31,520 nucleotides of DNA from the NCBI GenBank assembly GCA_001953115.1, contig LSSL01001086.1, positions 7,296 to 38,815 on the forward strand, written 5' to 3'. The first letter of the stretch is position 1; every line of letters begins with the position of its first letter. The translations under genes and the position numbers were made by a program. The stretch comes from Smittium mucronatum (taxonomy: Eukaryota; Kickxellomycota; Harpellomycetes; Harpellales; Legeriomycetaceae). A model generated the notes under the pieces. It was given only the letters and a program-made list of their open reading frames with translations, was not told where the DNA came from and did no database searches. This document shows positions 2,271 through 28,201 of the stretch, piece by piece.

Positions 2271-5200
2271 ATGGACCAGATTTTACCTTCTGAGATTGTC
2301 GAAAGGTTATTTGTAGTTTCGCAGAATGCAGAGTTGCGTTTCCTGTCGAAATCTTTTTACAGAATTTCAAAGTTAACCAAAGTTCGATCTGAATTCTTTC
2401 TTTTGCAATTCGGGAAAAAATTCGTTTTAGATTTCAATTCAGGCTTGCCTGCAAAATTTCCAAAGATTTTTAATAGCGAAAAATTAATTCTGAGTCTATT
2501 AAAAAAGAGTTCTAAAATATGCCAAGAGGGTCAAAGTCTATTCTGTTACGCAATTAAAAACTCTTGGAAAGAAGTTGTAAAATTCCTCTTGCATATTTTC
2601 ATTTATGTCGTCAATTCCAGTGAAATGGGAAGTTTCACTTTTGCAAAGCCTTTAATTCATCTAAACAAGAACCACAAATTCATAGAGCTCGCTCTAGGTG
2701 TTTTAGATATTCAAATCCTTAATTTAATCCTCAACTCTTACAAATTCCTTCCCAATCTGGCAGATATTAATACGAACAAAGTAAAAGTCCAAACCCATTT
2801 AAGAATTGAATTAAACGAAATTAAGTTTGAGTATATCCAAAAGGTTGTTAAAGAAAGGAGGATAGATGTTTTAGATTTATTATTTCAGAACGGTCTGGAT
2901 ATTAAAAAAAAGGAGAAAATATTTATTCCCGCAATATCTAACTCCGATATTCAAACTATTGAGTATTTAATAGATAAAGGAGGCAATTTCCTACACTTGG
3001 ATAATGAGGCGTTCAATGTTGCCTGTCGATACGGAAATAGTAACATCCTTGAATATATGGAATCTCATTGCCCAAAAGTAAATTTAAATACTAGAGATAT
3101 TCAGCGAATTTCAATCAAATATGGCAATGTTGAAGCTATGAAATATTTGCACTCTAAAGGATTTATTTCCTACTTTTTCAATTACGACAATATACCTGCT
3201 ATTTGTAAACATAATAATACACAGTTATTCGATTACCTCTATCAAAAATACTGCAACAAACTGACTATTTTGAAATTAGCATTACTTCATTCAACTCAAA
3301 AAAACAATATCCATATGATATCTCATCTCCACAAGAACTATCCTGATATTAAAGACTTTGTGGATCAGAACTTTTTTTTGATCTGTATTCATTGTTCATG
3401 TCCAGATTCCGCTGCTTTTTACATCCGAAATAACTATTTTTCATTCTCTGAAATGGTAAATATGGAGAAATTAATGTTTGAAGATATCTACAGTCGTTTT
3501 AAATTAAATGATTATTCTATGCATACCAAAGCTTTAGAAAGCTTATTCAAATTAATCCCCCTTTTCAAGTCATTCTTTGCTGCATCTTCAAACAAAGGGC
3601 ATAATGAGTATATTAGTAATTGGGAATCTCTCCTCAAGAATCGGATGAACCATCTTCTAATAATCATATCCAAAAGATCTAGAGATGTCAATGAAATAAA
3701 GGTGCTTATTGAAAATGGCGCTGATATTCACACAGGAAATTATCAGCCCTTAATAAACTCCTGTACAATGTCTAAAAATATTGATGTTATAAAGTATTTA
3801 ATTGAGAATGGCTCTGATGTAAATGCTCAAAATGGACAAGCATTGATTAATGCCTGCCAAAATCAGTCGAATTCTGAAGTTATAAAGTATTTGATTAGCA
3901 ATGGTGCTAATCTCCATTCACAGAATAACCAGTCATTAATTGAAGTTTGTTTTTATACCGACAATTTCGAATTATTTGAGTTTTTAATAAAAAACGGATC
4001 TGATATCAACTCTCAAAATGGACAGGCCTTAATTAATGCTTGTTCCAGATTTAGCGATTTGCGTAAAATTAAATATTTGATAGATAACGGCGTAGACATT
4101 CATTCTCAAAACGATCAGGCTTTAATAAACTTATTTTTCAGTTATCGGACTAAGGGAATTTTTGATTTTCTTGTTCAAAATGGAGCGAATATACGTGCTC
4201 AAAATGACCAAACTTTAATTAATGCTTGTTCGAAATGCGGGAATTTAGAACACATAAAATACATGATCGAAAATGGTGCTGACATAAATGCTCAACTCGG
4301 ACAGCCTCTAATAAGTGCCTGTAAGATAGATCATAATATAAAAGTCATAAAATATTTAATCGAAGGCGGCGCTAACGTAAATTCCCAAAACGGGCAGGCC
4401 TTGATTAATTTTTGTAAAGTAAGCAATAAATCCGAAAATTTAGACGTTATCAAATGTATGGTTAGGAATGGAGCCGACATAAACGCCCAAAATGGTCAAG
4501 CTTTGATTAATGCTTGTTCATTTCGAAGAAATCTACCTGTTATTAAATATCTAGTTGAAAATGGGGCTGATGTGAATTTGCAAAACAGCAAAGCTTTTGT
4601 TAATGCATGTAAAGGAAACGAATATGATGTGATAAAATTCTTGATAGAAAGCGGATGTGAGGTAAATGCTCAAAACGGACAACCTCTAATAAACATGTGT
4701 ACTAGTGGTAGGTCCATAGAAACGTTGGGTTTGCTCTTTGAAAATGGTGCAGATATCAATGCTCAAAATGGTCAGCCTTTGATTAGTCTTTGCAATAAGT
4801 TTATTCTGTTTAATGACTCGTTTGATGAATCATTCAAGTACCTTCTTTTTAAAGGAGCCGATATTAATGCACAAAAACGGAAAGTTTGGGCCACACTCTT
4901 CAGCGGATGCCCCTCAGTCTATTTAATCGGTTATTTAATCCAGAGTGAATCTAGTAAAAATTCTCAAAACGATGTATCTCTTATTGAGTCCTTTTCTTTT
5001 CAAATCGCCAACCCAAGAATTCCTTATAATATTGTCGAATGTTTGGCTGATAAAATGTCTATCATTTCCGAGGAAAATTTTCTTATCTCTTTTTTGAGAA
5101 ATCCAAGGTTTAAGGTTTTACAATTTTTCGCCAGAAAAGGTATAGAAATCATCAAATTCAAGGATTTCATATTGAATTGTATTTATGAACTTGAAAAGTA

Positions 5201-5558
5201 CAATTCAAATGAACATTGCTTTGGTCTCATAAAGTCTCCTAATATGATTCCCTGGTCTAATTCTGGTTGCATTTTTTGTCACGGCCAAGGTGAAGAGTGT
5301 TTATGTAATCTTTTTTATGGCCATGTTTCTTTATTAGATGAATTTTCTTTAATCATTTTGTATTTAATGAAGATTGGTGTTGAATTCTCCACTTCAGAAC
5401 TACAAGAAAAGTTTGGAAAATATTTGCACCAACTTATTCCTATCGATCTAAATTCTATATCATTTATGGATAATGACATCCCAAAAAGATTCTATTCTAA
5501 TTCGGGTGATTTTCCATTGTGGTATAGTGATTCCCTTGACCTACGTCGGGGTTTATAA
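2271..5558 (+). CDS. F-box-like / ankyrin-repeat protein, copy 1 (1095 aa)
   Basis: A large intronless gene, probably encoding a cytosolic or nuclear protein-interaction scaffold. Residues ~4-45 (LPSEIVERLF..., LSKSFYRISK) resemble an F-box, the Skp1-binding module of SCF ubiquitin ligases. Residues ~80-350 hold irregular ankyrin-like units (for example SDIQTIEYLIDKGG and YGNVEAMKYLHSKG). Residues ~473-905 hold about 14 tandem 31-residue units of the form (I/L)DVIKYLIENGADINAQNGQALINAC. Residues ~925-1095 form a C-terminal domain shared with the other copies, with a Cys/His cluster C1000-x2-C1003-H1004-x5-C1010-x-C1012. The start ATG matches the start of the paralogues (M-D/E-x-x-L) and has A at -3 and G at +4. 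There is no signal peptide or membrane segment. Relative to copy 4 it has two extra units in the later part of the array. Substrate-adaptor function is inference from domain architecture; the domain calls are by eye. Confidence 0.93.
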   Translation: MDQILPSEIVERLFVVSQNAELRFLSKSFYRISKLTKVRSEFFLLQFGKKFVLDFNSGLPAKFPKIFNSEKLILSLLKKSSKICQEGQSLFCYAIKNSWKEVVKFLLHIFIYVVNSSEMGSFTFAKPLIHLNKNHKFIELALGVLDIQILNLILNSYKFLPNLADINTNKVKVQTHLRIELNEIKFEYIQKVVKERRIDVLDLLFQNGLDIKKKEKIFIPAISNSDIQTIEYLIDKGGNFLHLDNEAFNVACRYGNSNILEYMESHCPKVNLNTRDIQRISIKYGNVEAMKYLHSKGFISYFFNYDNIPAICKHNNTQLFDYLYQKYCNKLTILKLALLHSTQKNNIHMISHLHKNYPDIKDFVDQNFFLICIHCSCPDSAAFYIRNNYFSFSEMVNMEKLMFEDIYSRFKLNDYSMHTKALESLFKLIPLFKSFFAASSNKGHNEYISNWESLLKNRMNHLLIIISKRSRDVNEIKVLIENGADIHTGNYQPLINSCTMSKNIDVIKYLIENGSDVNAQNGQALINACQNQSNSEVIKYLISNGANLHSQNNQSLIEVCFYTDNFELFEFLIKNGSDINSQNGQALINACSRFSDLRKIKYLIDNGVDIHSQNDQALINLFFSYRTKGIFDFLVQNGANIRAQNDQTLINACSKCGNLEHIKYMIENGADINAQLGQPLISACKIDHNIKVIKYLIEGGANVNSQNGQALINFCKVSNKSENLDVIKCMVRNGADINAQNGQALINACSFRRNLPVIKYLVENGADVNLQNSKAFVNACKGNEYDVIKFLIESGCEVNAQNGQPLINMCTSGRSIETLGLLFENGADINAQNGQPLISLCNKFILFNDSFDESFKYLLFKGADINAQKRKVWATLFSGCPSVYLIGYLIQSESSKNSQNDVSLIESFSFQIANPRIPYNIVECLADKMSIISEENFLISFLRNPRFKVLQFFARKGIEIIKFKDFILNCIYELEKYNSNEHCFGLIKSPNMIPWSNSGCIFCHGQGEECLCNLFYGHVSLLDEFSLIILYLMKIGVEFSTSELQEKFGKYLHQLIPIDLNSISFMDNDIPKRFYSNSGDFPLWYSDSLDLRRGL

Positions 5559-5643
5559 TTAAGATCGTATCCCTAAATTTTTTTTATATTTGATTGTTTG
5601 GTATAGATTTGAATACTTGTATTTTTAGCCTTAATGATTGATA

Positions 5644-5649
5644 AATAAA
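5644..5649 (+). terminator. candidate poly(A) signal of gene 1
   Basis: AATAAA lies about 85 bp after the stop codon. In DNA this AT-rich the hexamer is common by chance, so this is only a positional candidate. Confidence 0.3.
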
Positions 5650-5711
5650 TTACCATTATCGATGATTGAATTAGTGTCTAAAATTAAGGGCCTTTAAAAG
5701 TAAAATATCTT

Positions 5712-6320
5712 TTAGTGGTTTAGGGGTTTAAGTGGTATACTTTTCTTAATACACTATACCAAAATTTCACACAGCGTTGTACGATTGTTGGTTGAAAGTT
5801 AGTGGGGAAAGCGCACAGCGATTCGAAAGACAGCGATTCCAGAGGCGGACCATTTCGAAATAGAAGAGGCCGATCGTTTAGCGCAACTAAGATGTTTTCT
5901 ATTGCAAAAGTCCAGTTTTGATCATTCAGACGGATCTCAGCATCTAACAGCTATTTGTAGGAAAGCCATGTCAATCAAACCCACGTTTGGGTAGGAGCCT
6001 AATTTTATGTATCCTGTTAGAATTATGCTCTGATTAGGAGCCCAATAGCTTCAACGAACTATTGTTCGTTGCAAAGGGCTTAATTCATAACCTTTAATAC
6101 CTTAGCCACCCAGCCTACTTGAAAAAAATACCAGGAAATAGTATTTTAATTGGTAGATTGTACCCTTTTTCCTTAGGTACGCATCCCGTAGCCCGGCAGA
6201 GGGGCTTATTTTAACAAGTAAAATAGTATTATATACTTCTTTTTCTTTTTTAATATTCTCTTTAAATGTAGTTCTTAATGAATTAATCTTAAAATAAAAT
6301 TCAGCGATACAAAAAAAGAA
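5712..6320 (+). mobile_element. Retroelement copy A (non-coding, A-tailed, ~600 bp)
   Basis: This segment is similar, in opposite orientation, to 12290-12910 (copy B) and 30970-31520 (copy C). Read on the plus strand it ends with AATAAAATTC, then GATAC and an A-run, like an mRNA-type or LINE/SINE 3' end, so plus is taken as the element strand. Shared landmarks are a hairpin at 6052-6071 (CAACGAAC, loop TATT, GTTCGTTG), the block CCCACGTTTGGG near 5980-5991, a doubled CAGCGATTC near 5816-5845, and the GTACGCATCC module near 6180. No coding frame is conserved between copies. Divergence and lack of a clear target duplication point to an old insertion. It is more GC-rich than its surroundings. 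Confidence 0.75.
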
Positions 6321-8024
6321 ACACTTTTTTTAGTTTCCTAAATGTCAATGATATCCATAAAAATTAAGATACAAATACCATCATAATTGATGATATTATT
6401 GATATAGCGATTATTGCATCTAGAAAAAAGTCAAATGGCAGGGGGGGTTGAATCTCAAAAATAATAAGAGGCATCCTAATCCAAAAATTTGTAAGTAATC
6501 GGTCATAATATACATTTTTCGAAGACGAATCCAAGCTAACTAGATTTAACAAGTCAAGAATGGTTCCATACTAATAAATTGACTGTTTAAACACTTTAAG
6601 ATCTGTAATAAGGCTCTATCTTCACAGAAAGCGATTTTAAGTTTTATGATCCTACATGGGTTGATAAAAGTATTTTCTGATAGCATATAATCTTAAGGCT
6701 CTGGTGATCAGTGTGGTTTTGGCATCGACCTCAGAAGTTCCGTTAGAAAGCATAAAAGTGGCTGGATTTCGGTAAATGTAGATAGAAATGTTCAAACTTT
6801 TGCAGATTGTATAGTAGCGAATTCAAATATATCTGAATTGGTAAAACCTTTAAAGTAGCACCCAACTTAATCGATATACTGTAATGTGCACTTTACGTTT
6901 AAATTTCATTAATGCAAGTAATATTTTTATTGCTCAGTAATTTTCGTAAATTTTAATAAGATAAATTGGCATAAAACCCATAAATACATAAAATTTAATA
7001 GATTGCAGTGTTATCCCACCTAAATTCATACTTTTTTAACACGAATCCAATTTGCACACTTAAGATGGGCGCTGTTGTATATAAATTTAATATGACCACC
7101 ACATTCTTATAATATTGATAAAGTTTCTTCCAAAAAGGTCAATTAGCATCAAATTTAGCCTAGGAGATGGATTATACGTTTCATGGTCTTTAATCTCAGC
7201 ATAAATTCTGCATATATATAAATATATATGTTGATTGCCCGCAGATTCGAGATTGATTATTTAGTACTTAATTTCAGTACATGGGGTTAAGGGCTCTATA
7301 ACAGCAATCACTATATTTGGATGTTATCTCACCACTTAGTGTCATATCTACTAACTAATTAAATGAAGTTGTTTAGATCTAATTATAGCCTGTTAATATT
7401 TATCGAAAAGCTGATATTAAATGTTTAAATATTTATCATTTATCATTTATGAATTATAATGAATGTAAGGACTGACATTATGGAATTGGATATCGAGGTT
7501 TATAACCACAAACTTGTAAATTAATAAAGGGGATAAATGAAAGAAAAAACCCCGGATAATCAACAAGATATTATTGGCTGCAAGCAACCCAAATAGCAAA
7601 TAAACAATGCTTTACACGTCATTCAGACAAATGCTAGCAATATCATTTACTCAACCCCCCACTTTTTATGTATCGCTACGGTTTGTTTCAAAACACACAA
7701 GGATACTGAGAGGAATAGACAAACTTTAAACATGAATACATAAATGTTTACTGATCCAACTTTATTTAGAACGAATTCCATTTTTAATCGAACCCTTTCC
7801 TTAAAAGATTAGATCATATACTTTAGAGCAAGATTCGAAGCAAATTTCCTAGCTTCAAAGCCCCAAATCATAAATTTTATTTTCCTCTTACTTTAATTTC
7901 AGTATCATTCAATGAAAAAATATATCTATTATTTTGAATAAAAAAAAATAGCTTAATATGAATTTCAGAGAAAAATCTAAATAAACAGCCTTTCGGATTT
8001 TTATATATCATCTGTCCGTTTATA
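6321..8024. other. AT-rich spacer between copy A and gene 2
   Basis: No supported gene. A frame open from 6697 to 6858 (54 codons, plus strand) has no ATG start and no recognised motif. A minus-strand frame at 6364-6552 starts at TTG and is a low-complexity hydrophobic artefact. Short imperfect TTTATCA repeats occur near 7430-7450. No promoter element for gene 2 could be identified. Confidence 0.5.
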
Positions 8025-11000
8025 ATGGAGCGTAATTTACCCTTAGAAATCCTCGAACGAATATTTGTATTTTCGCAAAACTTTGAGTTGAGAATTCTGT
8101 CGAAAACGTTTTATGAAATCTCGAAATCGACGAAATTTCGCTCTGAATTCTTTCTTTTACTGTTTGGAAAGAAGCATGTCTTTGATTTCAAAAAGGGGCT
8201 GCCCGCTAAGTTTCCACGAGTTTTTTCGAATGAAAATTTGTCTATGAGTCTATTGAATTTGGGTGCAGTTATTAGTAAAAGAAACCAGGATTTATTCTAT
8301 TACGCAATCTTAAATTCTTGGGCTACTGTTATCAAATTCCTTTTGAATTTTTTTGTTTATAAAGTCAAATCAACGAAGTTATGGAGAGTAATTTTTGCTA
8401 AACCGTTAATTAATTTGAAAAAACATAAACTTAGAGCTATAAAGCTTGCACTAACCGCTTTAAATATCCCTATTCTGAACCAAATCCTCAACTCCCATAT
8501 TATTTCCCCTGAATTACCCATCCCTAATATTCAACGAGTCGTTATTACAAATCATTTAAGGGTTGATTTAAATAAATTTAGTATTGGATACTACCAAAAA
8601 GTTGTCAAAGAAAAGAGGATTGATATTCTAAACCTATTGATTAAAAATGGTCTAATTATTAAAGGAAAAGAGAAAGTATTCTATCCAGCAATAATCAACT
8701 CTGACATCAAAATTACCGAATTTTTAATTGGTAAAGGAGGTGATTTTTCTAATATAGACAACGAGGCTTTTATTATTGCTTGTAGATATGGAAATATCCA
8801 TATTATTGACTATATTGTATCACAATGTCCAAAATTGGAGGTAAACTACGAATATATCAAGAAAATTTCCATCAAATACGGTAACATTGGCGCAATGAAG
8901 TATTTGCACTCTAAAGGTATTCGCTCATACTTTTTCAATGATGTATATATATCTATAGTATGTGACCACAAACATACACAGCTGTTCGATTATGTCTACC
9001 AAAATTATTTCAACAAATCGACAATATTAGCATTTGCATTGCTTTACTCAACCCAAAAAAACAATATAGAAATGGTAACCCACCTCCTCAAGAATTACTC
9101 TGATACCAGGAAATTTGTGAACAATAACATGTTTATATTCAGTATTGTTAGTTCAAGTACAGATATTTCCACTCTCTTTATTCGAAATAAGTATTTTTCG
9201 TTTCAAGAAATTATAAGAATGGAGAAATTGGTTTTGGAAGAAACAATCAATAGCTTGGATCCTTATAATAATTCTAATCCTACAAATAAGCCAGATAACA
9301 TTTTTAAATTGATTTCAGCTTTCGCACTGTTTTATAGGAACTTTTCAAGCCATGAACATAAAGAATATATTAGTGATCGGAAATTTTATCTTAAAGCCCT
9401 AATGTCTCAACTTCTTATAATTTTATGCAAGAAATCCTGTAATCTTGAAGAAATACAATACCTTATTGACAACGGAGCTGATATCCATATTGAAAATGAT
9501 CAACCGTTAATTGAATCATGTTTATTGAGCAAAAACATTGCTGTTGTAAAATATTTAATAGAAAATGGCGCCAATATAAATGCTCAAAACGGGCAGGCTT
9601 TGATTAATGCTTGCAAAAAACAATCAAATTCTGATGTCATCAAGTGTTTGTTAGATAATGGATCTAATGTAAATGCCCAAAACGGACAAGCTTTAATTAG
9701 CGCTTGTGAGTCATCATATAAACTGGATGTCATAGAATTTATTGTCAAAAATGGTGTCTTTGTAAATGCTCAAAACGATTCAGCTCTAATCAAAGCCTGT
9801 TTAAACTGTGGATATTTGGATGTCATTAGATATTTAATAGAAAATGGATCAAATGTAAATTCCCAAAATGGCCAAGCTTTGATCAATGCGTGTGGACGTT
9901 GTAGTCTTTTAGGTAATATGGATGTTATCAAATACTTGATTGAAAACAATGCCGATATCCATTCACAGAATGATAAAGCTTTTGTTGAACTCTGTTTTTG
10001 GTCTAAAAACTTTGAATTGGTTGATTTTCTAATAAAGAATGGGGCTGATATACATGCTCAAAATGGCCAAGCTTTAATTAACGCATGCTCTCAATTTTGT
10101 GATTTGCTAAAAATTAAGGTTTTAATTGAAAACGGCGTCGATATTCATTCACAAAATGATCTAGCCTTTATAAATGCGTGTTCGGGTGATAAGAATATTG
10201 ATATAATTAGATTTCTTGTTAAAAATGGAGCAAATATTCGTGCTCAGAGAGATCAAGCTTTGATAAATGCTTGTTCATATCCTGTAGATCTGAAAATCAT
10301 TAAATATCTGATGGAAAATGGTGCTGACATAAATTCTCAAAACGGGCAGAGTTTGGTTAATATTCCTAGATGCTACTATGGTTCCAAAAATATGGAAGTG
10401 ATGAGATATTTAATTGAAATTGGCGCTGATGTTAATGCCCAAAACGGACAGACAATAATTAACGCTTGTTCACAAAAAGGAAATTTCGGTGCCATAAAAA
10501 TTTTAATCGAAAACGGAGCTGATGTGAATTCACAGAACGGTTTTCCTCTGATAAATGTCTGCAAGAATCGTGGGCCCATCGAGACTCTAATACTGTTGAT
10601 TGAAAATGGAGCAAACATCAATGCCCAGAATGGTTTGCCCCTAGTTAGCTTTTGCAATTCCTTTTATAGACCCGACATCTCATTTGAAAAATCTTTTTAT
10701 TATCTTCTTTCCAAAGGTGCTAATATTAATTCACAAGATGAAAACGTTTGGATCAAAATATTCCGCGGGTATATGCCAGCTCAGTTGATCAAGTTTTTAA
10801 CTCAGATTGAGATAAATATTGATTCCAAATGCAGCTTTACTCTTATTGAGGTCATATCCGACCGAATCCTTGATCCGGAAATCCCTTTTAATGATGTTGA
10901 ACTTTTGGTAAAAAAAATGGGAATTATTACTGACCAAAATTTTCTTATATCTTTCTTGAGAAATCCAAGATTTAAGATTCTAAAGTTTTTTGCCGATAAT

Positions 11001-11354
11001 GGAATAGCAATGATCAAATACAAGGATTTTATCTTGAGTTTTCTCTTTGAAATAACTGAAGGATATTATAAGAGCCTTTTACTTCGCCTATTAGGCTTTG
11101 AAGATGTTTCTAACTTGAATTCCTATTGTTATTATTGTCATAATGACAATAGAAAATGCATAAGCGGCCATGTTTATGGCCATTTTTACCAACTAAATGA
11201 GGTTCTTGTAATTCTACTATATTTAAAAAAAATTGGTGTTGACTTTTCTACAGCAGTACTCCAAGATATGTTTGGGGAATATTTAAAACAACTAGATACA
11301 GTCGACCTCAATACAATATCATTTGAAGAAAATGAATTCGACCAAAATTTTTGA
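8025..11354 (+). CDS. F-box-like / ankyrin-repeat protein, copy 2 (1109 aa)
   Basis: Paralogue of copy 1 with the same architecture in one exon. The F-box-like N-terminus is LPLEILERIF at residues ~4-45. The conserved middle region includes SDIKITEFLIGKGGDFS and IKYGNIGAMKYLHSKG. About 15 units of the 31-residue ankyrin repeat begin at residue ~473. The C-terminal domain includes NPRFKILKFFADNG and the cluster C1035-x2-C1038-H1039-x5-C1045, followed by H1048 and H1052. It has five units before the first NADIHSQND-type unit, against two in copy 1 and three in copy 4, so extra units sit at the front of its array. The start ATGGAG has A at -3 and aligns with the paralogues. A role as an SCF-type adaptor is inferred from the F-box/ankyrin combination only. 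Confidence 0.93.
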   Translation: MERNLPLEILERIFVFSQNFELRILSKTFYEISKSTKFRSEFFLLLFGKKHVFDFKKGLPAKFPRVFSNENLSMSLLNLGAVISKRNQDLFYYAILNSWATVIKFLLNFFVYKVKSTKLWRVIFAKPLINLKKHKLRAIKLALTALNIPILNQILNSHIISPELPIPNIQRVVITNHLRVDLNKFSIGYYQKVVKEKRIDILNLLIKNGLIIKGKEKVFYPAIINSDIKITEFLIGKGGDFSNIDNEAFIIACRYGNIHIIDYIVSQCPKLEVNYEYIKKISIKYGNIGAMKYLHSKGIRSYFFNDVYISIVCDHKHTQLFDYVYQNYFNKSTILAFALLYSTQKNNIEMVTHLLKNYSDTRKFVNNNMFIFSIVSSSTDISTLFIRNKYFSFQEIIRMEKLVLEETINSLDPYNNSNPTNKPDNIFKLISAFALFYRNFSSHEHKEYISDRKFYLKALMSQLLIILCKKSCNLEEIQYLIDNGADIHIENDQPLIESCLLSKNIAVVKYLIENGANINAQNGQALINACKKQSNSDVIKCLLDNGSNVNAQNGQALISACESSYKLDVIEFIVKNGVFVNAQNDSALIKACLNCGYLDVIRYLIENGSNVNSQNGQALINACGRCSLLGNMDVIKYLIENNADIHSQNDKAFVELCFWSKNFELVDFLIKNGADIHAQNGQALINACSQFCDLLKIKVLIENGVDIHSQNDLAFINACSGDKNIDIIRFLVKNGANIRAQRDQALINACSYPVDLKIIKYLMENGADINSQNGQSLVNIPRCYYGSKNMEVMRYLIEIGADVNAQNGQTIINACSQKGNFGAIKILIENGADVNSQNGFPLINVCKNRGPIETLILLIENGANINAQNGLPLVSFCNSFYRPDISFEKSFYYLLSKGANINSQDENVWIKIFRGYMPAQLIKFLTQIEINIDSKCSFTLIEVISDRILDPEIPFNDVELLVKKMGIITDQNFLISFLRNPRFKILKFFADNGIAMIKYKDFILSFLFEITEGYYKSLLLRLLGFEDVSNLNSYCYYCHNDNRKCISGHVYGHFYQLNEVLVILLYLKKIGVDFSTAVLQDMFGEYLKQLDTVDLNTISFEENEFDQNF

Positions 11355-11482
11355 CATGACTCTACTAATTTTTAACTAGAACTACATTTTGTTAACCAGT
11401 TTAAAATTTGGATTTATTGTAAAGAGCTTAATGATAATTCTAAAAACCGAAAATTACATATTGTTGGGCCGTTAGATCGATG

Positions 11483-11488
11483 AATAAA
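11483..11488 (+). terminator. candidate poly(A) signal of gene 2
   Basis: AATAAA lies about 130 bp after the TGA stop. It is a positional candidate only, since the hexamer is frequent in this base composition. Confidence 0.25.
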
Positions 11489-12289: not shown

Positions 12290-12910
12290 TTTTTTTTTAT
12301 CACAGAATTTTATTTTAAGGTAAATTAGTTAAAAACTATAGTAAAAATCGTCAAAAAATAAAATATATGTATATGAATATTATAATAATTACAATAAGTT
12401 TTTCTTTCAGACTATACGCTGCTTATCTACGGGAAAAGGGTGAAATATACCAACTAAAATATCCCCCATGGTATTATTCAAGTAGGTGTATGACTGAAGA
12501 TACATGCTCGCAAATTTAAAGTTCTTTGTCAAAGAAAAAACAATTTCTTGAAGCTATCGAGCTTCTATTTAGAGCCTAAATCTAACAGGATTAATAAAAT
12601 TAGGCACCCATCTAAAAGTGGAAGTTACCGATTTGGTTTTCCTAAAAATTTAGTTTGGGAACAGAGATCTTACTGACTGTCGAACGCTGGAATTGTGCAC
12701 TAGAAATTGTATCAGTCTGTACTAAACGACCCGGTTCCTCCTGCTTCTATATGCCCCTCCTCATGAATCGCTGTCCTTCTAATCAACCTGAGCTATCTCC
12801 TCATGTCCCAATCAAGAATAGTACTAAGTAGTGTGAAATTTTTAGTATATTTTACTCGTAAAAATGCGCTAATTTATTTTATAAAACATGGCAAGGTATA
12901 CCACCTTTAG
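12290..12910 (-). mobile_element. Retroelement copy B (non-coding, A-tailed, ~600 bp)
   Basis: Second member of the family described for copy A. On the minus strand it ends with AATAAAATTCTGTGAT followed by an A-run at the low-coordinate edge. Landmarks shared with A and C include TCGAACGCTGGA-TTGTGCACTAGA near 12678-12706, CTAACAGGATTAATAAAATTAGGC near 12581-12604 (with gaps in A), and the hairpin region at 12529-12551, where one base is bulged. Similarity to copy A extends to a shared GTATACCAC near 12895-12905. It is the most diverged of the three long copies; the GTACG module is barely readable here. No conserved coding frame and no clear target duplication were seen. Confidence 0.7.
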
Positions 12911-13194: not shown

Positions 13195-15580
13195 AACTTT
13201 TTCCCAAAAACCAGAAATATTTTCCCAATAGTTTCAAATACTCTCTTAAAAATCAGAAATATTTTCCCCTCCCAATGAAGCATTTTCCCAATAAAAATAA
13301 ATTTTCTCCCGATAAAAAGAGGCTATTTTATATCCTATGAAGAATTATTTCTCAATAAAATGAAAAGATTTCCCATTTTATGGTCCATTAATTTCTTACA
13401 AATAGAAATAATTTCTGAATAGTCAGATTAAATTTCCAGCAATATTTGGCATTATTCTTTGGATTAAATTTTATACAATAACGAAAATTAATATTATTAG
13501 AAATTTCTTTTTTTAGAAACATGGCAGAAGCATAAATTTTTGAACCTATATTAAATAAATCTTCCATTTTAAGGCTTATTTACCGGTATGTGAGAAAATA
13601 TCCTTTTATATTTTTAATAATACTATATGATTTAAAATTTTATAGATGAAAATATTACTAAAAGAAATTTTGCTACCACAATTTAAAATATAATGGAAAA
13701 AATTGTGTTTAAAATTTTCTAATTCAACCCATTTTATCATTTTTCAGAATTAGTTCATAAAAAAATCTTTAAATAATTATAATTATAATTATGTAATTTA
13801 TTATATGCATTCATTTAGTGATTTATAGTTCTGCTCCCAAAATATTCGTATCTAGGTTTAAACATAGATAAAACCCCCTTATTGAATCCAATTGGGAATA
13901 ATATACTGAAAAATATTTAGAACTTTTTAATGATGATGGTATTGCTTTTTTTTAGCATTTATTTTCGTGTTTGCATTGAACGTTACTACCATTTTTTATT
14001 CACAATCTGTGGAAAAAAAAAAAATTTCTAAAAATTATTTATCATCCTTTTATTAAACGGTTTTTTGTTAATTTCTAAAAAAATAATTCTTTTTATAGAT
14101 ATAATCACTAAAATTTATATACTCAAATATTTTTTTCAATGGTACTGTAATTTTAGCATTAGAATTTATAAATGAATATCTATATGTTATTTAAAAAATT
14201 AATTAAATACCAGTTTTACCCGAATAAACTGAATCAATTTTAGAAATTACAGAAATTTATATAAAAATCATTTTTTTGTAATTAATGACCTAAACATTAT
14301 TTCTTTACGCCGAAATCTTTTAAAATATTTTTTATGATAGCAAGTGTCAACAATCTTTCTTTTTATTTTTTATTTAGAAGCTGAAGTGCCAGATTTTGGC
14401 GAATGATTTTTCAAATGATCTTTTTTTAAAGAATGGTTTTAATTATTATCAATGAAAAAAATTTCCATAATTTAATTTTTATTCTTTTTTTCCATATTTA
14501 GTCATGAGAAAAATTTTTATAGCTACAAGAGTTTAAAGCTCTATGCATATATTTTTCGAAAAATCTATTCAATAATAAATATAAATTCCTAATGAAAAGA
14601 ATAAATTATTATTAGAAATTAATTATTTATATATACTATTAAAACTAGCTATTATTTCTTTTTTCAAAGCGGTTTTCTTATTTCGATTTCGGGTAATTAT
14701 TTATAATATAAATATTTGACTTGATACTATTTTCTATGCTATTTCTATTAAAATATTGAATTAATAATTATCATCTTGTAATTTGAAATATAAATACCAC
14801 ATTTTAACGATATTTGATTGAGATGTAATATTAAAATGGTCATATTTGACCAATTTATACCTTTTTTACTATAAATACAATAATTTTAAGTTCATAATAC
14901 GAGATTTAAATATTAATTAATAATCTATTATTATCGATTTGGTATATTATTTTGTTATTAAGACATGAAATACAAAAATAATTAGAGTTTTAAAAATATA
15001 AAAGATTATTTTCTCACTTTTTTTTTTTTTTTTAAAGGGAATTTTATTTATAATATTTAAATACTAGAAAAAAACTAAAATAAAAAATAAAATAAAAGGA
15101 AAAAATAATAAAATTTCATCCTACTCCCATCTGTCGCTCTAACGGCTCCGTACTTACTGGGCATTGGTTCAAGGATTATTTTCTCACATACCGATAAATA
15201 AGCCTTAAAATGGAAGATTAATTCAATATAGATTTAATAATTTCTGCTTCTGCCAGGTTTCTAAATAAATTGATTTCTAATAATATTAATTGTTTTTATT
15301 GGATATAATTATATCATAAAAATAATCTCAAATATTGCTGGAAATTTAATCTGGCTATTCAGAAAATATTTCTATTGATATAAAATTAACGTCCGATATA
15401 ATGAAATTTTTTTTCATTTTTTGGGAATCAATTCCATTAATTTTGGGAAATGTTATTGGTTGTTTGGGATTGAGTATCTTAGATTGGGAAATTGTGTAAT
15501 TATTTTGGGAAAACGTTTCAATTAATTGGGAAACATTTTCATTTGATTGAGAAGGAATTCCAATCTCGTTGGGAAACCCT
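13195..15580. mobile_element. Non-coding element with long (~430 bp) inverted terminal arms
   Basis: The left arm (about 13200-13640) is the reverse complement of the right arm (about 14980-15017 plus 15174-15570). Anchor matches include 13561-13602 with 15174-15215 (TTCCATTTTAAGGCTTATTT versus AAATAAGCCTTAAAATGGAA) and 13411-13446 with 15333-15367. The outer part of each arm is an array of degenerate TTTTCCCAATA (left) or TTGGGAAA (right) motifs spaced about 15-35 bp. No transposase frame lies in the ~1.3-kb AT-rich interior. The layout is that of a foldback or long-TIR non-autonomous DNA transposon; a hairpin produced by inverted duplication is the alternative. Arm identity looks near 80-85% by eye, so it is not recent. 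Confidence 0.7.
15004..15187 (-). mobile_element. SINE-like element D with 14-bp target duplication, nested in the right arm
   Basis: The body is about 15018-15173. On the minus strand it begins CTTGAACCAATGCCC and ends AATAAAATTCCCTTT followed by about 16 A. It is flanked by exact 14-bp copies of GATTATTTTCTCAC (15004-15017 and 15174-15187), the mark of target-primed reverse transcription. The same flanking word occurs once, uninterrupted, in the left arm of the host inverted repeat, so the insertion post-dates that element. The AATAAAATTCC tail matches copies A, B and C. Its module CCGTTAGAGCGACAG resembles the 3' half of a tRNA D-arm, but no complete tRNA is present. Confidence 0.85.
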
Positions 15581-15582
15581 GT

Positions 15583-16690
15583 AATATGATCAGCAGTTTA
15601 TATTACAAGCCTAAATTAGCGGTCAGAATTTGAAATAATGTTTTGGAACCAGTAGAATATTATGTGGGGTACGCCAAGGATGCCCAGGATCTCCAATTTT
15701 ATGTTATTTTATTTTTACATCAAAGACACTTTTACAGAAGTTACAGGATTAAAGATTCAGATTTATCGGAACGAGTAACTAGATTTTTATTAGCGGATTA
15801 TTCAGTTGTGCTGGCTGATTCTGCAGAAAATCTTCAAAAGGAATTAAATTTCATAAAAATTTAGTTGAGCTCATGGGAAATGACAATAAATTGAGAAATA
15901 TGCGGAAATATGAAGGTTATTTCTAATTCAGCTATAGATACGACACCTAAAATACAAATAATTGGTTCAGTCAATAAAAATAAATATTGAGATAAAAAAT
16001 ATAAGTTAAATCGAATAAATTAGTAACGATAAAAAATGACGATGATAAGGTCTAAAAAGCCTATAAATTGGCTTAAAGTTTTCTGAACAGAAACAATTTA
16101 CTTTCAAATCTAAAAGTATAATTAATTTGCTCAGTCCTCAGACCTTTAAATTGATCAGGTGTTGAAACTTTTGGGACGATCGAAGCCAGGTCTAAGCCAA
16201 TAAAATTGGTTTTAGAAAGAAAAATGTGATTGGTAGTGAAAGTACAAAGATTTTAGATTTGGAACGTCCGAGATACGGGTCGGGGGTAAATTAATTATTT
16301 ATAAGAATCAGTTCTGCCAAGGAAAGGGTGGAATATAAATGGGGCACTTCGAAAATTATCTCAGACCTCATATCTAATCAAATTTCCGATAATCTCGAAA
16401 AAAAACCACCTATGATACTAGATGCTCATTCTGGATCAAAGGGTACTTTGGGTTAGGAGAAAGTGTCCAAAAATTTCATTCATCGGCCGATTATCACTCG
16501 AAAAAGTACCGTAAAAAAATAAAATAATAACCCAAAGAACCCGAGATAAAAAATAAAGGTAACAGGATATTATTGGAAGAAACCCATCATGAAATAAGGC
16601 AGGGAATTATATAAATCGGAAAATTTTGAATGGAGCTTTCAGGGATTGTCAGTGTTGGACAAGGATATCCAACCAAATCTAAATACTGAT
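15583..16690 (+). pseudogene. Non-LTR retrotransposon (LINE) reverse-transcriptase relic
   Basis: Translation in shifting frames recovers the order of a LINE RT and its thumb region. About 15583-15660 gives an SLYYKPKLAVRI-like stretch. About 15664-15724 gives GVRQGCPGSPIL, the RT motif usually written GxRQGxPLSP. About 15733-15864 gives VTRFLLADY-SVVLADSAENLQKELN, where the catalytic F/Y-A-D-D is degraded to LADY. About 15868-15920 gives WEMTIN..ICGNMKV, and 16059-16220 gives a stretch ending ARSKPIKLVLER. Weaker C-terminal similarity continues to about 16690. Several stops, at least three frame changes and the lost catalytic Asp make it non-functional. The 5' part (endonuclease and RT motifs before GxRQG) is absent; it begins right at the outer edge of the inverted-repeat element, either 5'-truncated or cut by that insertion. 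The part after 16220 is tentative. Confidence 0.8.
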
Positions 16691-16703
16691 TTTAAGAATG
16701 ATA

Positions 16704-20478: not shown

Positions 20479-20650
20479 TTAACCCTTTCAGGGGCAATGG
20501 TACAAAAAATGGCGTTCACTTTTTGCTCAATGTTTTCATTAGACTAATATTATTTGTATACCATTGGATAAATCTAAAAGTTAGGCCAATTGAAATGGCT
20601 AATTTACACAAATAGGAGTGAGGCCTAAATTTGGGCCCGGAAAGGGTTAA
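20479..20650. mobile_element. piggyBac-type MITE (164 bp plus TTAA duplication)
   Basis: The segment 20483-20646 is bounded by TTAA on both sides (20479-20482 and 20647-20650). Its ends are inverted repeats: CCCTTTCAGGGGC at the left and the complement of CCCTTTCCGGGCC at the right. TTAA target duplication with termini starting CCC is the hallmark of the piggyBac superfamily. There is no coding capacity, so it would be a non-autonomous MITE moved by a transposase encoded elsewhere. It lies about 325 bp upstream of the pseudogene start. Confidence 0.75.
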
Positions 20651-20974
20651 ACAATCGCGCTCTTTTATGCGTCTACCTAAAAACCATATATTTTTTAAAA
20701 AAGGCCATAGTTGTTGATTTTTTTTTTTTTTTTACGCAGAGTCATAGTTGTTGAAAATAAAAATATAATTCATTATTTTTTTATTTTTTTCAAGAAAATA
20801 GCAAAAAAATTAGTAGACCACCAAACTTTAAGTCAACTTTTTTGCAAATAAAGTAAAGTTTATTTTAGAATTCTAAAAATGCCACTATTTTATACGTATT
20901 TATTAATTAGATGTCCGATTAGTTTTAAAAAAATGCATTCCCTTTCAGTATAATAAAAACATAAAATCGAAAAT

Positions 20975-23900
20975 ATGGAGCCTAATCTACCTTCTGAGAT
21001 TATAGAGAGGATATTTTCCATTTCCCAAAACCCCGAGTAAAAATTGGTATAAATGTCATTTTACGAAATTTCAAAAGTAATTAAAGTTCGAACCGAATAC
21101 TTTCTCTTACGTTTTGGGAGGCAAAATGTTTTCAATTATAAAAAAGGTTTGCCTGCCAAGTTTCAAAAAATATTCAAGTGCGAAAACTTGTCTCCAAGTC
21201 TCATAAAAACGGGTGCCATGATTAATAAAGATGGTCAAAATTTGTTCTACTATGTGATTGAAAATTTCTGGGAGCTGTTTGATGAATATTTGTTAAAAGT
21301 TTTTATTCATCGATTCGAAAAGAGTGATTTTAAAAAAGTAGCATATTCCAACTCCATAATATCCTTAAAAAAGAATAACTATAAATCTGTTAAACTTGCT
21401 CTAGAAGCTTTAAGTCTGCAAATTTTGGATCTAATTCTTAACTCTCACAAGATTTCTCACAATCTTGATGGCCAAAGTATATCTATAGTCATTATCCAAA
21501 AGCATTTGTCTGTGGATTTAAACTAAGTGGATATTTTTAGATATCTAAAAGTCGTCAAAGAAAGGATGTTTGATATTTTAAAAATATTATTCAAAAACGG
21601 TTTCGAAATCAAGAAATAAAAGGAAACATTTTACCCAGCAGTATTCAACTCTGATATAAAATCTATAGAATACTTGATCAATAAAGGGTGTGATATATCG
21701 AGCTTAAATAATGACGATTTTTATATCGCCTACGCTATGGGGATATCCATTTTCTTGAGTATAATGAAAAACACTGTCCAAAAATAAAATTGAATCATAA
21801 TTTTGTGAAGAAACTTGCTATCTCTTATAGAAACATTGGTAAAATGGAGTATGTTCGTTGTAGAGGATACTCTTCATACTTTTTTAACTGTGATGCTGTA
21901 CGATTTATATGCAAAAAGAATGGATATAAACTTTTTGATTATATTTACCAGAGTTACTGCAACAGATTAACAATTTTAAAATATCTATTTTTGCACTCAG
22001 TAAAAAAAAGCAACATCAACGCATTATCTTATCTTTCTCAGAAATACCCCAATGAAATCAGAGTCTTCGTAAAAGAGAGTCTTTTTATCATCTGTATTTC
22101 AGATTCAAGTCCAGATACAGCATCTTATTTTATTAATAACAACTATTATACATTGGATCAAGTAATAGGGTTGGAAAAGTTGGTTTTGAATGAGATAAAA
22201 ATCGATTTAAGGATTTCGATGAAATTCTTCATAAAAAGAAACCTGGAGATTTGCTAAAACTAATCCCTATTTTCAAAAAATTTTAAAAAAAATCCTCAAA
22301 TAATGAGAATAAAGAATATATTCAAAATCGAGAAGCTCATATCAAAAACAATATATCTTTATTTTTGTCAGCTGGATGTGATGAATCTATCACTCTTAAA
22401 TTAATAAAGTATCTAGTTTTTCACGACGCGAATATCCACTATCGCGAAGATCAACCCCTAATTAATGCTTGCGATAGAGACGAAGATCTTCCGATCATTA
22501 AATATTTAATCTAAAATGGAGCCAATATAAATGCTCAAAATGATCAAGCTTTAATCAATGCTTGTTGTATCGAAAATAATCTTGATGTAGTAAAATATCT
22601 GGTTGAACATGGAGCAAATGTTAATACTCAAAACGGAAAAGAATTAATTACTCGCTGTCAGGAAACCGGAGACCTAGATTTCATAAAATATCTGATTGAT
22701 AATGAAGTAAATATACATTCACAGAATGACCAAGCATTGGTTTCGGTACGTTTTCATAACTCTAATTATGAATCATTTGAGTTTATGGTACGCAATAGGG
22801 CTGACATATATACCCAAAACGGCAGTGCTTTGATTAGTGCTTGCACTTTCCATAAAGATCTAAGAATATTAAAATATTTAATCGAAAATCGCGTCGAAAT
22901 TCACTTCCAAAATGATAAAGATTTAATAAAAGCTTGTAAGAGTTATGGAATGGTGGATGCTTTTAACCTTCTCGTTCAAAACGACGCAGATATTCATGTC
23001 CAAAATGGGAAGGTTCTGATTAATTCTTGCTATCGTCAGCGCAATTTAAATTCTGTGAAACATCTTGTCGAAAAAGGTGTGGATGTTAATGCTCAAAACT
23101 GAGTGACTCTAGTTTTAGCTTGTCTTAGCCCCAATGGCTTTGAGTACATAAAATATCTAATCGAAAATGGTTGCAGACATAAATGCGCAAAACGGGCAAC
23201 CTCAAATTAATGTCTGTAGTAGACGTGGGTCTTTAAAAGAGATAAAACTGCTAGTTGAAAATGGTGATGATTTAAACGCGCAGAACGGAAAACCTTTAAT
23301 TTATCTTTGCAAATCTTTTTACGGGCCAAGTCAATTATTTGACGAGTCGTTTGGATATCTTATTTCTTTGGGGGCTGGTAATAATATTAACTTGAAGCCG
23401 ATATATTTTCAAGTATTTAGTGGACATTTTTCACCCACTCCGATGAGATATTTAATACATGCCAAAGTGAAAATAAATTTTCGAGCAAATATGGTCTTAT
23501 TGAGGAACTTTCCGACAGAAATATAGACTCTAAAATATCTTTAAAAATTTTAGAAATTTCGGAAGCTAAAATGTGTATTATATTGGACCAAAGCTTTCTC
23601 ATATCATTCTTTAAAAATCCAAGGTTTAAAATTATAAGCTTTTTTGAAAAAAAAGGAATAGAAATTATCAAGCATAAAGATTTTATTCTAAATTGCTTGT
23701 TTGAAATAATTGAGGGGGATTATCGAAGCCTGCTACTCTGCGTTTTAAACAGCTCTGACTTGAATCGGATAGAATCCAAGTTGCGCTTTTTTTCTTAATC
23801 GTATTGTTAAATGCTCTTGTACCGATATTTACTTCAATGTTTCATACACAGACGAAATCTGTGTAATACTTTTGTATCTAAAATTTTTTGGCGTTGACCT

Positions 23901-24069
23901 CTCTACGACTGAAATCCAGGAAAAGTTTGGGAAATATTTTCAGCAACTAAATCCAATTGATATAAGCACAATAAAATTTGATAATGGCTTTTATAACAGT
24001 TTTTATCCTCAATCAAGTGATGTCTCTCTATGGTTAAAGGGCTTTGAATCCACCTTTAGTTATTATTAG
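20975..24069 (+). pseudogene. F-box-like / ankyrin-repeat gene, broken copy 3
   Basis: Alignable to the intact paralogues from the start (MEPNLPSEIIERIF) to the C-terminal end (LQQ-type FGKYFQQLNPID region). In-frame stops lie at 21038-21040, 21050-21052, 21524-21526, 21617-21619, 22284-22286, 22512-22514 and 23100-23102. Frame changes occur near 21735, 22208, 23170 (one extra T after AATGG), 23490 and about 23780. It retains about 12 of the 31-residue ankyrin units, with three units before the HSQND-type unit, as in copy 4. The C-terminal C-x2-C-H-x5-C cluster is degraded: the first Cys (codon at 23782) and the later C-x-C remain, but the second Cys and the His are lost. Most damage is point changes and single-base shifts, so it decayed in place as a whole gene. 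The nearest relative among the four is probably copy 4, its neighbour. Confidence 0.92.
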
Positions 24070-24994
24070 CTATACTATTATCAACCAATCTCTAATTCAG
24101 CATCCTTAAACTGATCAAATTATAAGTTTATTTATTTCCTCAACTAAATTTTATAATAAGGGTTATTTTTAATGGCTACTAATATATGAATACTTGATAT
24201 TAAGCGAAAAAAGTACAGTTTTTTTTGTCATTTATCTTGCAGCTGCAGCATTTATTTAAAAAACCTCTTGGGAAAAAATTAAATTGCTTGCGATTGATTA
24301 TTAACTAGAATCAATAACGGTAATATTAATTCCTTTATTGGATTGATTATTAATATATGCTGATTACACATATTAAAGAAATTTAAATAGGATCATTGGA
24401 AAATGGTCTAGGGTTTTACAACAAATCATCTTGGCTATCCTATCTTCCTAAATTAATTTGGCTTGGATTTAATAATAGGATCCTGGATTTGTAAAAAAGA
24501 GCTTGAGAATTAATTAAAGAGTATCATTTAACTCTTTAAGGACATATAGTGCAAAAAGTGCAAAAAGTTGCGTTTAGGAGCAGGGTTTAGTGGTAGGTAT
24601 TATGATTTAGTGAAATTGTGGTTTAAAATAAATTTCTATTTTTATCAGAACTAGCCAGTAGAATGAGAGCTGATAGATTAATTTCGGTTGACAAAAATAA
24701 AGTAAACAGTTTAGCCCAACGAATATAAAGAATTATGAGTTAACTGTTAAATATTTCTTTCGAGGTTAATAAATCGAAAGCGGTATTCGATATATAGCCA
24801 ATAAACAATTTCAGTTTATACCTAACGCTTGATTCTGGATTTATTATATACATGATTAAATATATTAAATTTAACAAATAGAAGTGCGGTTTTATCCATT
24901 TTTTATGAAAAATCTAATCATGTATAATATATATCATAATACATATAAGTGTTATCAGTACATAAAAAGAATTTTAATTTATATCTTTTAGAAA
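24070..24994. other. Spacer between pseudogene and gene 4; presumed promoter region
   Basis: AT-rich, with no gene. It holds a direct repeat GATTGATTATTAA (about 24292 and 24344), a doubled AGTGCAAAA near 24549-24566, and a perfect 12-bp inverted repeat TATACATGATTA / TAATCATGTATA (24847-24858 and 24915-24926). TTTTAG sits three bases before the gene 4 ATG and could be a 3' splice site of a leader intron, but this is not testable here. Confidence 0.45.
24847..24926. repeat. 12-bp inverted repeat upstream of gene 4
   Basis: TATACATGATTA at 24847-24858 is the exact complement of TAATCATGTATA at 24915-24926, with a 56-bp loop, about 70-150 bp before the gene 4 ATG. It could be a regulatory palindrome, the ends of a tiny MITE, or chance in AT-rich DNA. 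Confidence 0.4.
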
Positions 24995-27900
24995 ATGGAG
25001 CAAGTATTGAATTTTGAAATCATTGAAAGGATATTTGTCATTTCCCAGAATCCTGAATTGCGATTTCTATCGAAATCATTTTACAAAATATCTAAATCGA
25101 CAAAAGCTCGTTCGGAATTCTTTTTACATCGTTTTGGAAAGAAGAATGTTTTAAATTTCGAGATGGGTTTGCCTGCTGAATTCCCCAATATTTTTGAAAA
25201 CGAGAAATTAGTCCTAAACCTTATGAAGTTGGGTGCAAAGACTAGCAAGGTGGGCCAAGAATTGTTTTACTACGCTATTGAAAATTCATGGGTCACAGTT
25301 GTGGAATACTTGTTAAAAGTTTTTGTTCGAGGATTCGAACCAAAAAAATCGGGAGGAGTAGCTTACATCAAACCTCTAATTTCTTTAAAAGAGAGCAAAT
25401 ATGAATCTGTTAAACTTGCTCTAGAATATTTAAACAAGCCTATTCTGATTTTAATTCTCAACTCGCACAAATTCAACCACAAACTGGAAGGTCAAAATTT
25501 GCGTGTGGCAATAATTAAAAAAATTCCAAAAGTTGATTTAAATAAAGTTGATTTTAATTGTTATCTGAATATAGTTAAAGAAAGAAGGATTGATATTCTA
25601 GATATATTGTTTGAAAACGGGCTAGTAATTAAGTCAAAAAAAGAAATATTTTACCCAGCAATATCCAACTCTGATATTGAAACGATCGAATATTTGGTTA
25701 AAAAGGGGGGTGACTTTTCTAGCTTGGAACATGGACCCTTCAATATTGCCTGCCAAACTGGAAATATCCACATTCTTGAGTACATGGTATCACATTGTCC
25801 GAAATTAGTTTTACACCCTAGTTCTATAAAGGGAAATTCTATCAAGCATGGGAACGCTGATGCAATGATTTTCTTTCATTCTAAAGGATTGTGTTCGCAC
25901 TTTTTCAACTATGATGTTGTGCCATTTATATGTGATCACAATTACACCCAGCTACTCGATACAATCTACCAAATTTATAACAACAAAATGACTATTTTAA
26001 AGTTTGCGTTTCTTCGTACAGTTCAAAAAAACAACATGGTGGTTCTAACTCACCTTATCCAGAATTATCCTGGAATCAAGGACTTCATAAATCAAGATCT
26101 ATTTATGATTTTTATTCGGGATTCTAGTTTTGCAACAGCCGCTTTCTTTATTCAAAATAATCATTTTTCATTTTCTCAAATGATAAAATTTGAGAAATTA
26201 GTTTTGGAAGAAATCCATAAACGGGATGTTCACTACGATAAGAAACTTTATGCCAAGAAGTCAACAGAGTTATTCAATCTTATTCCCCTTTTTACCGAAT
26301 TCTTTAAGACTTGTACAATAATCGATAAAGAAGAATATATGCAAAGCCGAAAAACTGCTATCCGAACTCAGATGTCATTGTTTTTTTCAGCCGAGTGTAA
26401 TCAGTTTATGCCTCTAGAAAAATTAAAACTTTTTATTGAAAAAGACTATGATATTCACATTGATAATGACCAACCTCTAATCAATGCTTGTAGTATTAAA
26501 AGCAATCTACCAGTCATCAAACATTTAGTCGAAAATGGAGCAGACGTAAACGCAAAAAACGGGTCACCTTTAATTAATGCCTGCTCAGATGATATGTTTC
26601 CCACCCCACAATTGGAAATTATAAAGTATCTTGTTAAAAAGGGAGCTGAAATCAATGTTCGGAATGGCCAGATTATAATTAATGCTTGTAATTCAAATAA
26701 TCCTCTTCCTGCTTTAAAATATTTAATCGAAAATGGAGCTGATTTGCATTCGCAGAACGACCAAGCTTTCGTTAATATTTGCGCAAATACGTGTAATATT
26801 GAATCTTTTATGTTTCTAGTTCAGAACGGGGCTGACATTAATGCCCAAAACGGTGAGGCTTTAATTAAGGCTTGTTTTCTCCCTGAAGACATGCAAAGAA
26901 TCAAATTTTTAATCAAAAATGGCGTTGATATCCATTCTCAAAATGATAAAGCTCTAATTAGCACTTGCTTGGAAAGCAATTCCTTGGATGTTTTTGGTTT
27001 TCTTGTAAAGAATGGAGCAAATATACATGCTCAAAATGACCAAGCTTTGATAAATGCCTGTTCAAAGTTTAATAATTTTAAAATTGTAAAATATCTTGTA
27101 GAAAGTGGAGCTAATATAAATGCCCAAAATGGACAGGCCCTAGTTACAGCTTGTTCAAATGCAAGAAATTTAGATATATTAAAATATTTAATCTCTAATG
27201 GAGCTGATGTAAATGCTCAAAATGGTCGGCCTTTAATTGAGGCCTGCAAGAATTATGAACCCTTTGATATGATCAAGCTGCTGATTGAAAACGGCGCAGA
27301 TGCAAATTCCCAAAATGGAATGCCTTTAATTAACGTCTGCAAAAATCGTCCATCTCTAGCAACTTTAAGAATTTTAATTGAAAATGGGGCAGTTGTAAAT
27401 TCACAGAACGGTTTACCTCTAATTAACCTTTGCAACCATTTACTCTGGGAAGACTTTCAGTTTAATGAACCTTTCGATTACCTTATTTCTTGTGGAGCTG
27501 GTAAAAGTAACCAGCTAGGACCCATTTGGGCTCGTGTTTTCAATGAATACACTCCTTCCAGATTGCTTTCGTATTTAGCTCAGACTGAGGTGAATACAAA
27601 CCTCCAAGATTTTGTACCTCTTATTGAGGATCTTTCGGACAGAATTGTTGAACCGAAAAATCGCTATAGCACCACAGAAACTCTGGCTGAAAAAATGTGT
27701 ATTATAACAGATCAAAACTTTCTAATATCATTCTTTAAAAATCCTAGGTTTAAGGTTTTAAAGTTTTTTGCTAGTAAAGGGATTGAAATTATTAAACACA
27801 AGGATTTCATATTAAATTACCTGATTGAATTGATTGGTATGAGCTATAGAGACCTGCTTCCTTTTCTCTTGGGGGATTCATTTTTGGAAGGATCTTCTTA

Positions 27901-28201
27901 TGACTGCAGTTTCTGCCATCAATATCGTCTAAGATGCTCTTGCACTGATATTTACGTTAATGTTTCATATACGGACGAAGTTTGTGTGATGCTCATGTTT
28001 CTAAAAACAATGGGCGTTGACTTCACGTCGTCTGAACTCCAAGAAAAGTTTGGGAAATATTTGCAACAAATTGATCTAATTGATCCAAATACAGTATCTT
28101 TCATGGATAATAACGCTTATGAAAATTTTTATTCTAACACTGTTGAGTTTCCAATGTGGATAGATGATTTTGATTCTATTCGTAAAAGTGAATACGAATA
28201 G
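24995..28201 (+). CDS. F-box-like / ankyrin-repeat protein, copy 4 (1068 aa)
   Basis: The third intact paralogue, and the shortest. Its N-terminus (FEIIERIFVISQNPELRFL) keeps the F-box-like spacing, but the usual L-P is replaced by L-N-F. The middle region is conserved (SDIETIEYLVKKGGDFS, GNIHILEYMVSHCPKL). About 13 ankyrin units of 31 residues start at residue ~473, one less than copy 1 and two less than copy 2. The C-terminal domain has NPRFKVLKFFASKG, a cluster C971-x2-C974-H975-x5-C981-x-C983, and FGKYLQQIDLID. The ATG has A at -3 and G at +4 and aligns with the paralogues. No introns, membrane segments or signal peptide were seen. Substrate-adaptor function is inferred only from the domain combination. 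Confidence 0.93.
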   Translation: MEQVLNFEIIERIFVISQNPELRFLSKSFYKISKSTKARSEFFLHRFGKKNVLNFEMGLPAEFPNIFENEKLVLNLMKLGAKTSKVGQELFYYAIENSWVTVVEYLLKVFVRGFEPKKSGGVAYIKPLISLKESKYESVKLALEYLNKPILILILNSHKFNHKLEGQNLRVAIIKKIPKVDLNKVDFNCYLNIVKERRIDILDILFENGLVIKSKKEIFYPAISNSDIETIEYLVKKGGDFSSLEHGPFNIACQTGNIHILEYMVSHCPKLVLHPSSIKGNSIKHGNADAMIFFHSKGLCSHFFNYDVVPFICDHNYTQLLDTIYQIYNNKMTILKFAFLRTVQKNNMVVLTHLIQNYPGIKDFINQDLFMIFIRDSSFATAAFFIQNNHFSFSQMIKFEKLVLEEIHKRDVHYDKKLYAKKSTELFNLIPLFTEFFKTCTIIDKEEYMQSRKTAIRTQMSLFFSAECNQFMPLEKLKLFIEKDYDIHIDNDQPLINACSIKSNLPVIKHLVENGADVNAKNGSPLINACSDDMFPTPQLEIIKYLVKKGAEINVRNGQIIINACNSNNPLPALKYLIENGADLHSQNDQAFVNICANTCNIESFMFLVQNGADINAQNGEALIKACFLPEDMQRIKFLIKNGVDIHSQNDKALISTCLESNSLDVFGFLVKNGANIHAQNDQALINACSKFNNFKIVKYLVESGANINAQNGQALVTACSNARNLDILKYLISNGADVNAQNGRPLIEACKNYEPFDMIKLLIENGADANSQNGMPLINVCKNRPSLATLRILIENGAVVNSQNGLPLINLCNHLLWEDFQFNEPFDYLISCGAGKSNQLGPIWARVFNEYTPSRLLSYLAQTEVNTNLQDFVPLIEDLSDRIVEPKNRYSTTETLAEKMCIITDQNFLISFFKNPRFKVLKFFASKGIEIIKHKDFILNYLIELIGMSYRDLLPFLLGDSFLEGSSYDCSFCHQYRLRCSCTDIYVNVSYTDEVCVMLMFLKTMGVDFTSSELQEKFGKYLQQIDLIDPNTVSFMDNNAYENFYSNTVEFPMWIDDFDSIRKSEYE

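Follow-up and report, generated by a model that had tools for sequence, protein, structure and literature searches.

What do the long, related genes repeated along one strand of a Smittium mucronatum contig encode, and what might their products do? The array had been interpreted, from the letters alone, as a locally expanding set of substrate adaptors that join a F-box-like N-terminus to ankyrin repeats. We followed up this sequence-only reading in the whole stretch of 31,520 nucleotides concerned (the window) and in the genome assembly to which it belongs (73.8 Mb in 2957 contigs). Our answer, to which we give a probability of about one half, is that the genes form an old tandem family particular to their lineage, whose long products join a divergent N-terminal F-box to an ankyrin solenoid and would act as SCF substrate receptors.

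The gene array and its age

The window carries three intact open reading frames and one dead copy, all on the forward (+) strand, in the order and with the common architecture first described. Gene A (2271..5558, 1095 aa) encodes a F-box-like N-terminus, a middle region of partly degenerate ankyrin repeats, a regular array of 31-residue repeats and a C-terminal domain. Gene B (8025..11354, 1109 aa), which has the highest F-box score, and gene D (24995..28201, 1068 aa) are built in the same way. Copy C (about 20975..24051) is dead: its homology is split into six pieces between which the frame changes five times, and it contains eight in-frame stops, four in the first piece and four in the third. 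The GC content of the window is about 18-35% per kilobase, and its longest stop-to-stop frame extends over 1130 codons, compared with no more than 147 in any of 100 mononucleotide shuffles. The genes had been called giant; with products of about 1.1 thousand residues they are better described as long. They had also been described as single exons of about 3.2 kb. The reading frames are indeed uninterrupted, and 'single exon' should be understood in this sense only.

Genes A, B and D can be aligned along almost their entire length, with 45-51% identity in tblastn (the alignment of B with D is composed of two overlapping pieces) and with 49-53% identity in multiple alignments. Between pairs, 46-58% of codons differ at the third position, and these differences exceed those at first and second positions in all 12 region-by-pair comparisons. 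This pattern indicates both constraint at the protein level and an old split. The 700 bp flanks of the copies have nothing in common beyond short words. With paralogues that are deeply diverged (45-53% identity) and flanks that are unrelated, ongoing local expansion is not supported. The array is best read as an old tandem family, one member of which has also been lost; as far as sequence matches indicate, the family is probably specific to its lineage.

A number of other features of the window may be recorded here. Gene B is missing from the protein database's entries for the window, where genes A and D are present, and its public gene model may therefore differ or be absent. A run of 43 copies of the trinucleotide ATA occupies positions 1-129. 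Between genes B and C lies a foldback or terminal inverted repeat element, with arms of about 265 bp (13342-13605 and 15171-15434) that are 83% identical and about 1.6 kb apart. A short open piece at 15634-15861 resembles, by eye, a decayed reverse transcriptase fragment. A dispersed repeat, at most about 550 bp long (5772-6322, 12290-12824 and 30969-31520; 71-78% identical, in mixed orientation) occurs near the genes and is likely to be a mobile element remnant rather than a co-duplicated flank.

The ankyrin solenoid, its core and the C-terminal domain

The ankyrin array is certain. A Pfam search, suggested as a check in the sequence-only reading, places Ank_2 (PF12796) far above its cut-off of 27.3 bits in the full-length proteins A, B and D (172.5, 177.9 and 149.3 bits, respectively; E 4.9e-44 to 5.6e-53). 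As had been noted from the sequence, the repeat unit is mostly 31 residues long, with a few spacings of 30, 34 or 35. Ankyrin repeats commonly have 33 residues, two more than here. The array includes 12 units in gene A (3735..4856, +), 13 in gene B (9492..10718, +) and 11 in gene D (26462..27496, +). In a structural model of the gene B product, the helix pairs of the array have pLDDT values mostly of about 69-88, with lower values around residues 561-600 and in some short segments.

The middle region, described as a separate part of the protein, is present in all copies but much of it (about residues 190-400) is degenerate ankyrin. Ank_2 matches the N-terminal fragments (482-492 aa) of A, B and D with 39.4, 34.6 and 28.6 bits (cut-off 27.3), and its best stretches fall between residues 194 and 299. 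In the full-length model of gene B, helix pairs occupy about residues 190-400 (pLDDT mostly 66-84). The preceding segment, residues 51-185 or so, is modelled with low confidence and gives weak matches to single ankyrin repeats in A and D, close to residues 87-108.

A new observation is a core of four repeats that occurs in like order in all four proteins, that is A, B, D and a further S. mucronatum protein described below (P0003), with differing numbers of repeats around it. The units of the P0003 array are of this kind too. Classified by their hairpin motifs, the core units are, in order, of the types H..D/N, (N/H)..G, H..D and (R/H)..D. The core spans residues 551-674 of A (3921..4292, +), 648-771 of B (9966..10337, +) and 587-710 of D (26753..27124, +), and starts at residue 646 of P0003. 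It is preceded by two recognised units in A, five in B, three in D and four in P0003. When all phased four-unit pairings were ranked (12 to 36 for each protein pair), the core came first in five of the six pairs and, in A-D, nearly tied for first but ranked second, with identities of 0.49-0.65 against pairing medians of 0.36-0.42; this ranking is post hoc, the core having been chosen by eye beforehand. We also counted variability by position over the 34 units of exactly 31 residues in the four proteins. Variability is highest at positions 11-14 and 17-18. It is lower at positions 1-10 and 19-31, among which are the usual binding positions of ankyrin repeats (hairpin and inner helix).

The C-terminal 210-216 residues are 45-46% identical between paralogues and match no Pfam family at a maximum E-value of 10 in A, B or D. 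They include a C-x2-C-H-x5-C cluster that is invariant in the three intact proteins (5268..5300 in A, 11127..11159 in B and 27905..27937 in D, all +). This could be a metal site.

The N-terminal segment

The proposed function depends on the first 50 residues (2271..2420 in gene A, 8025..8174 in gene B and 24995..25144 in gene D, all +). The earlier proposal of a F-box N-terminus proves partly justified: a weak but specific signal exists, most evident in B and also seen in P0003, but it is below threshold, and A and D do not show it. When the N-terminal 50-60 residues are searched against Pfam, F-box families are the only ones reported, with PF00646 in two of the four members, below cut-off in both. 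PF00646 heads the list for the B fragment, with 17.5 bits against a cut-off of 20.5 (E 0.0038 over 24736 families), and scores 13.6 bits, against the same cut-off, in P0003. PF12937 also matches the B fragment weakly. The A and D fragments alone give no F-box match in Pfam, and no F-box appears in a full-length Pfam scan of A, B and D at E <= 1. In this segment A is 72-74% identical to B and D, and D is 74% identical to both A and B.

A small HMM constructed from three F-box sequences found in this genome gives a similar picture. The score of the B segment is reached by 2 of 500 shuffles and that of P0003 by 5 of 500, and no other window of the same protein reaches that of the N-terminus (0 of 50 in B, 0 of 37 in P0003). 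For gene A, 89 of 500 shuffles and 3 of 49 other windows reach the score; for gene D, these figures are 134 of 500 and 13 of 48. In an hhalign scan against F-boxes, residues 1-50 rank fourth among 106 overlapping windows, in the expected register. The three top windows are C-terminal, within residues 971-1040 (in gene B, the stretch concerned is residues 961-1040, window positions about 10905-11144); they outscore the N-terminus slightly, and this is probably a generic helix match. Helices are predicted at residues 7-14, 20-36 and 40-47 of the full model, and at similar places in the fragment, and would fit a three-helix F-box, at low confidence. The pLDDT of residues 1-60 (about 30-38 in the full model, mean 49 in the fragment) is too weak for calling a F-box fold, and Foldseek returned no match with this low-confidence N-terminal model.

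These results must be weighed against an alternative, which we consider possible but on the doubtful side: that the proteins are plain ankyrin scaffolds, in which the N-terminal helices cap the solenoid and the likeness to a F-box is due to chance or is a relic that does not bind Skp1. The sub-threshold scores, the lack of a match for A and D alone and the unusable N-terminal model are all in keeping with this. So is the result of searching PDB chains with a profile of residues 1-50, which found no F-box but only two matches at E <= 10, both unrelated. However, residues 1-50 are the most conserved block of 50 residues (68% invariant in A, B and D, L5, E8 and I9 among them, compared with at most 54% elsewhere), which a mere cap need not be, and F-box families are the only ones that Pfam reports for this segment. 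On this basis a F-box origin of residues 1-50 is likely, their identity as a F-box is probable rather than proven, and the evidence leans towards putative Skp1 binding.

The genome itself provides some context. It contains at least one Skp1 locus, from a single match of 52.7 bits (such counts are lower bounds). A search with F-box families scored 13 candidates, and the four loci listed appear by eye to be F-box genes of the LRR or WD40 type; genes A, B and D are not among these four, which counts against the F-box reading. Two contigs (L001 and L002) carry the same F-box/LRR-like gene, one residue apart by eye in the part read, and are perhaps uncollapsed alleles or a recent duplicate.

Relatives and a possible role

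The sequence-only reading had anticipated further relatives, and one was found. In a search of 5.8 billion protein sequences, two of four matches lay outside the window, as did one of three when region 1-480 was used and three of five with an alignment. For region 1-480 of gene A, the sole relative outside the window at E <= 10, from 5366 candidates, is P0003, and this search may hide records from nearby genomes. P0003 is a S. mucronatum protein named 'putative ankyrin repeat protein L25', which shares the N-terminus, middle region, array and core of A, B and D with 42-45% identity. The record contains 856 aa and stops inside the array, so that the C-terminal domain is not seen there.

The name L25 is that of a mimivirus protein and raises the question of whether the family was acquired from a giant virus. 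We consider this improbable. Against viral models, Foldseek ranks ankyrin proteins of Tupanvirus, Catovirus and mimivirus first, and at rank 47 places a Pithovirus LCPAC001 entry named 'F-box domain and ankyrin repeat protein'. The query was a model of moderate confidence (mean pLDDT 65, pTM 0.43), and the likeness is one of solenoid fold, which shows no descent. Scans of viral contigs with whole, N-terminal and C-terminal alignments gave no confirmed relatives among 76, 47 and 308 pattern matches, respectively, so neither terminal module has a confirmed sequence relative there. Moreover, the ankyrin likeness is generic: it extends to 79 kept loci of bacteria and archaea, whose matches fall in the array and the ankyrin-like middle and never in the N-terminal 185 or the C-terminal 215 residues. 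In this prokaryote scan, the lowest E-value belongs to a contig filed under an epsilonproteobacterial metagenome-assembled genome (L007, 3001-5771; residues 194-940, 37% identity in the best segment), which is possibly mis-binned. An even less probable idea is that these proteins leave the fungal cell and act on the insect host: the insect-gut lifestyle of the likely relatives would suit it (available part of PMC5954228), but the N-termini start with the F-box-like segment and by eye have no hydrophobic signal stretch.

Several known systems combine similar parts. In the available excerpts, ankyrin is given as one substrate domain among F-box proteins (PMC9485057), some F-box proteins of Aspergillus nidulans are marked with ankyrin repeats (PMC9744329), and single F-box/ankyrin proteins are described in fungi, with one per genome in Macrophomina phaseolina and Magnaporthe oryzae (PMC7991009); we liken these to the present family by description. 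Also from partial texts, poxvirus ANKR/F-box (PRANC) proteins join an ankyrin array to a SCF-recruiting F-box in multi-member families, but their F-box is truncated and C-terminal, and in eukaryotes ANKR/F-box proteins are said to be extremely rare and known only from Nasonia wasps (PMC9414399). We rejected membership of the PRANC type, since the segment here is N-terminal and PRANC is absent among the Pfam matches listed. FEM1 proteins, of which FEM1B/C chains are among the Foldseek matches, are ankyrin substrate receptors of Cul2 ligases; according to the entry titles they use EloBC/Cul2 and not Skp1, and resemble A, B and D in the ankyrin fold only.

Our literature searches found nothing that joins Smittium, Harpellales and ankyrin, nothing on Smittium mucronatum with ankyrin, and nothing on ankyrin repeats with a F-box in early-diverging fungi. 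One paper that mentions both Smittium and F-box includes a F-box/LRR protein in its core toolbox and, in the part available, describes the likely relatives as obligate insect-gut commensals (PMC5954228). Expansion of the ankyrin family is said, in an excerpt, to be limited to anaerobic chytrids (PMC8778642), and the accessible text of PMC12611240 mentions neither F-box nor ankyrin. Overall this points to moderate novelty: the combination of a F-box with ankyrin is already known, but this tandem family with a conserved core was not found in the literature searched.

Returning to the reading as SCF substrate receptors, which is probably the putative role of these proteins, a mechanism can be proposed. 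If the genes are expressed, residues 1-50 would bind Skp1 and thereby dock the protein on Cul1/Rbx1, and the solenoid, with its degenerate and regular repeats, would hold a substrate that is then ubiquitylated. The four-repeat core may be a binding site common to the paralogues, and each of these may be tuned by how many units surround the core. The low variability at the usual binding positions is not expected of diversifying substrate receptors and counts against this mechanism. A bolder version, which we regard as rather doubtful, is that insect-gut fungi evolved multi-copy degraders like the viral ANKR/F-box proteins but with the F-box at the opposite end; the fixed core would read a common ligand, and 31-residue units gained or lost on both sides would retune the receptors.

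If true, a tandem ANKR/F-box family in a probable gut fungus would widen the picture of the rarity of these proteins in eukaryotes and provide a cellular case in which the F-box is N-terminal. The natural series of 11, 12 and 13 units around a fixed core would then be a testbed for how repeat number tunes an ankyrin receptor.
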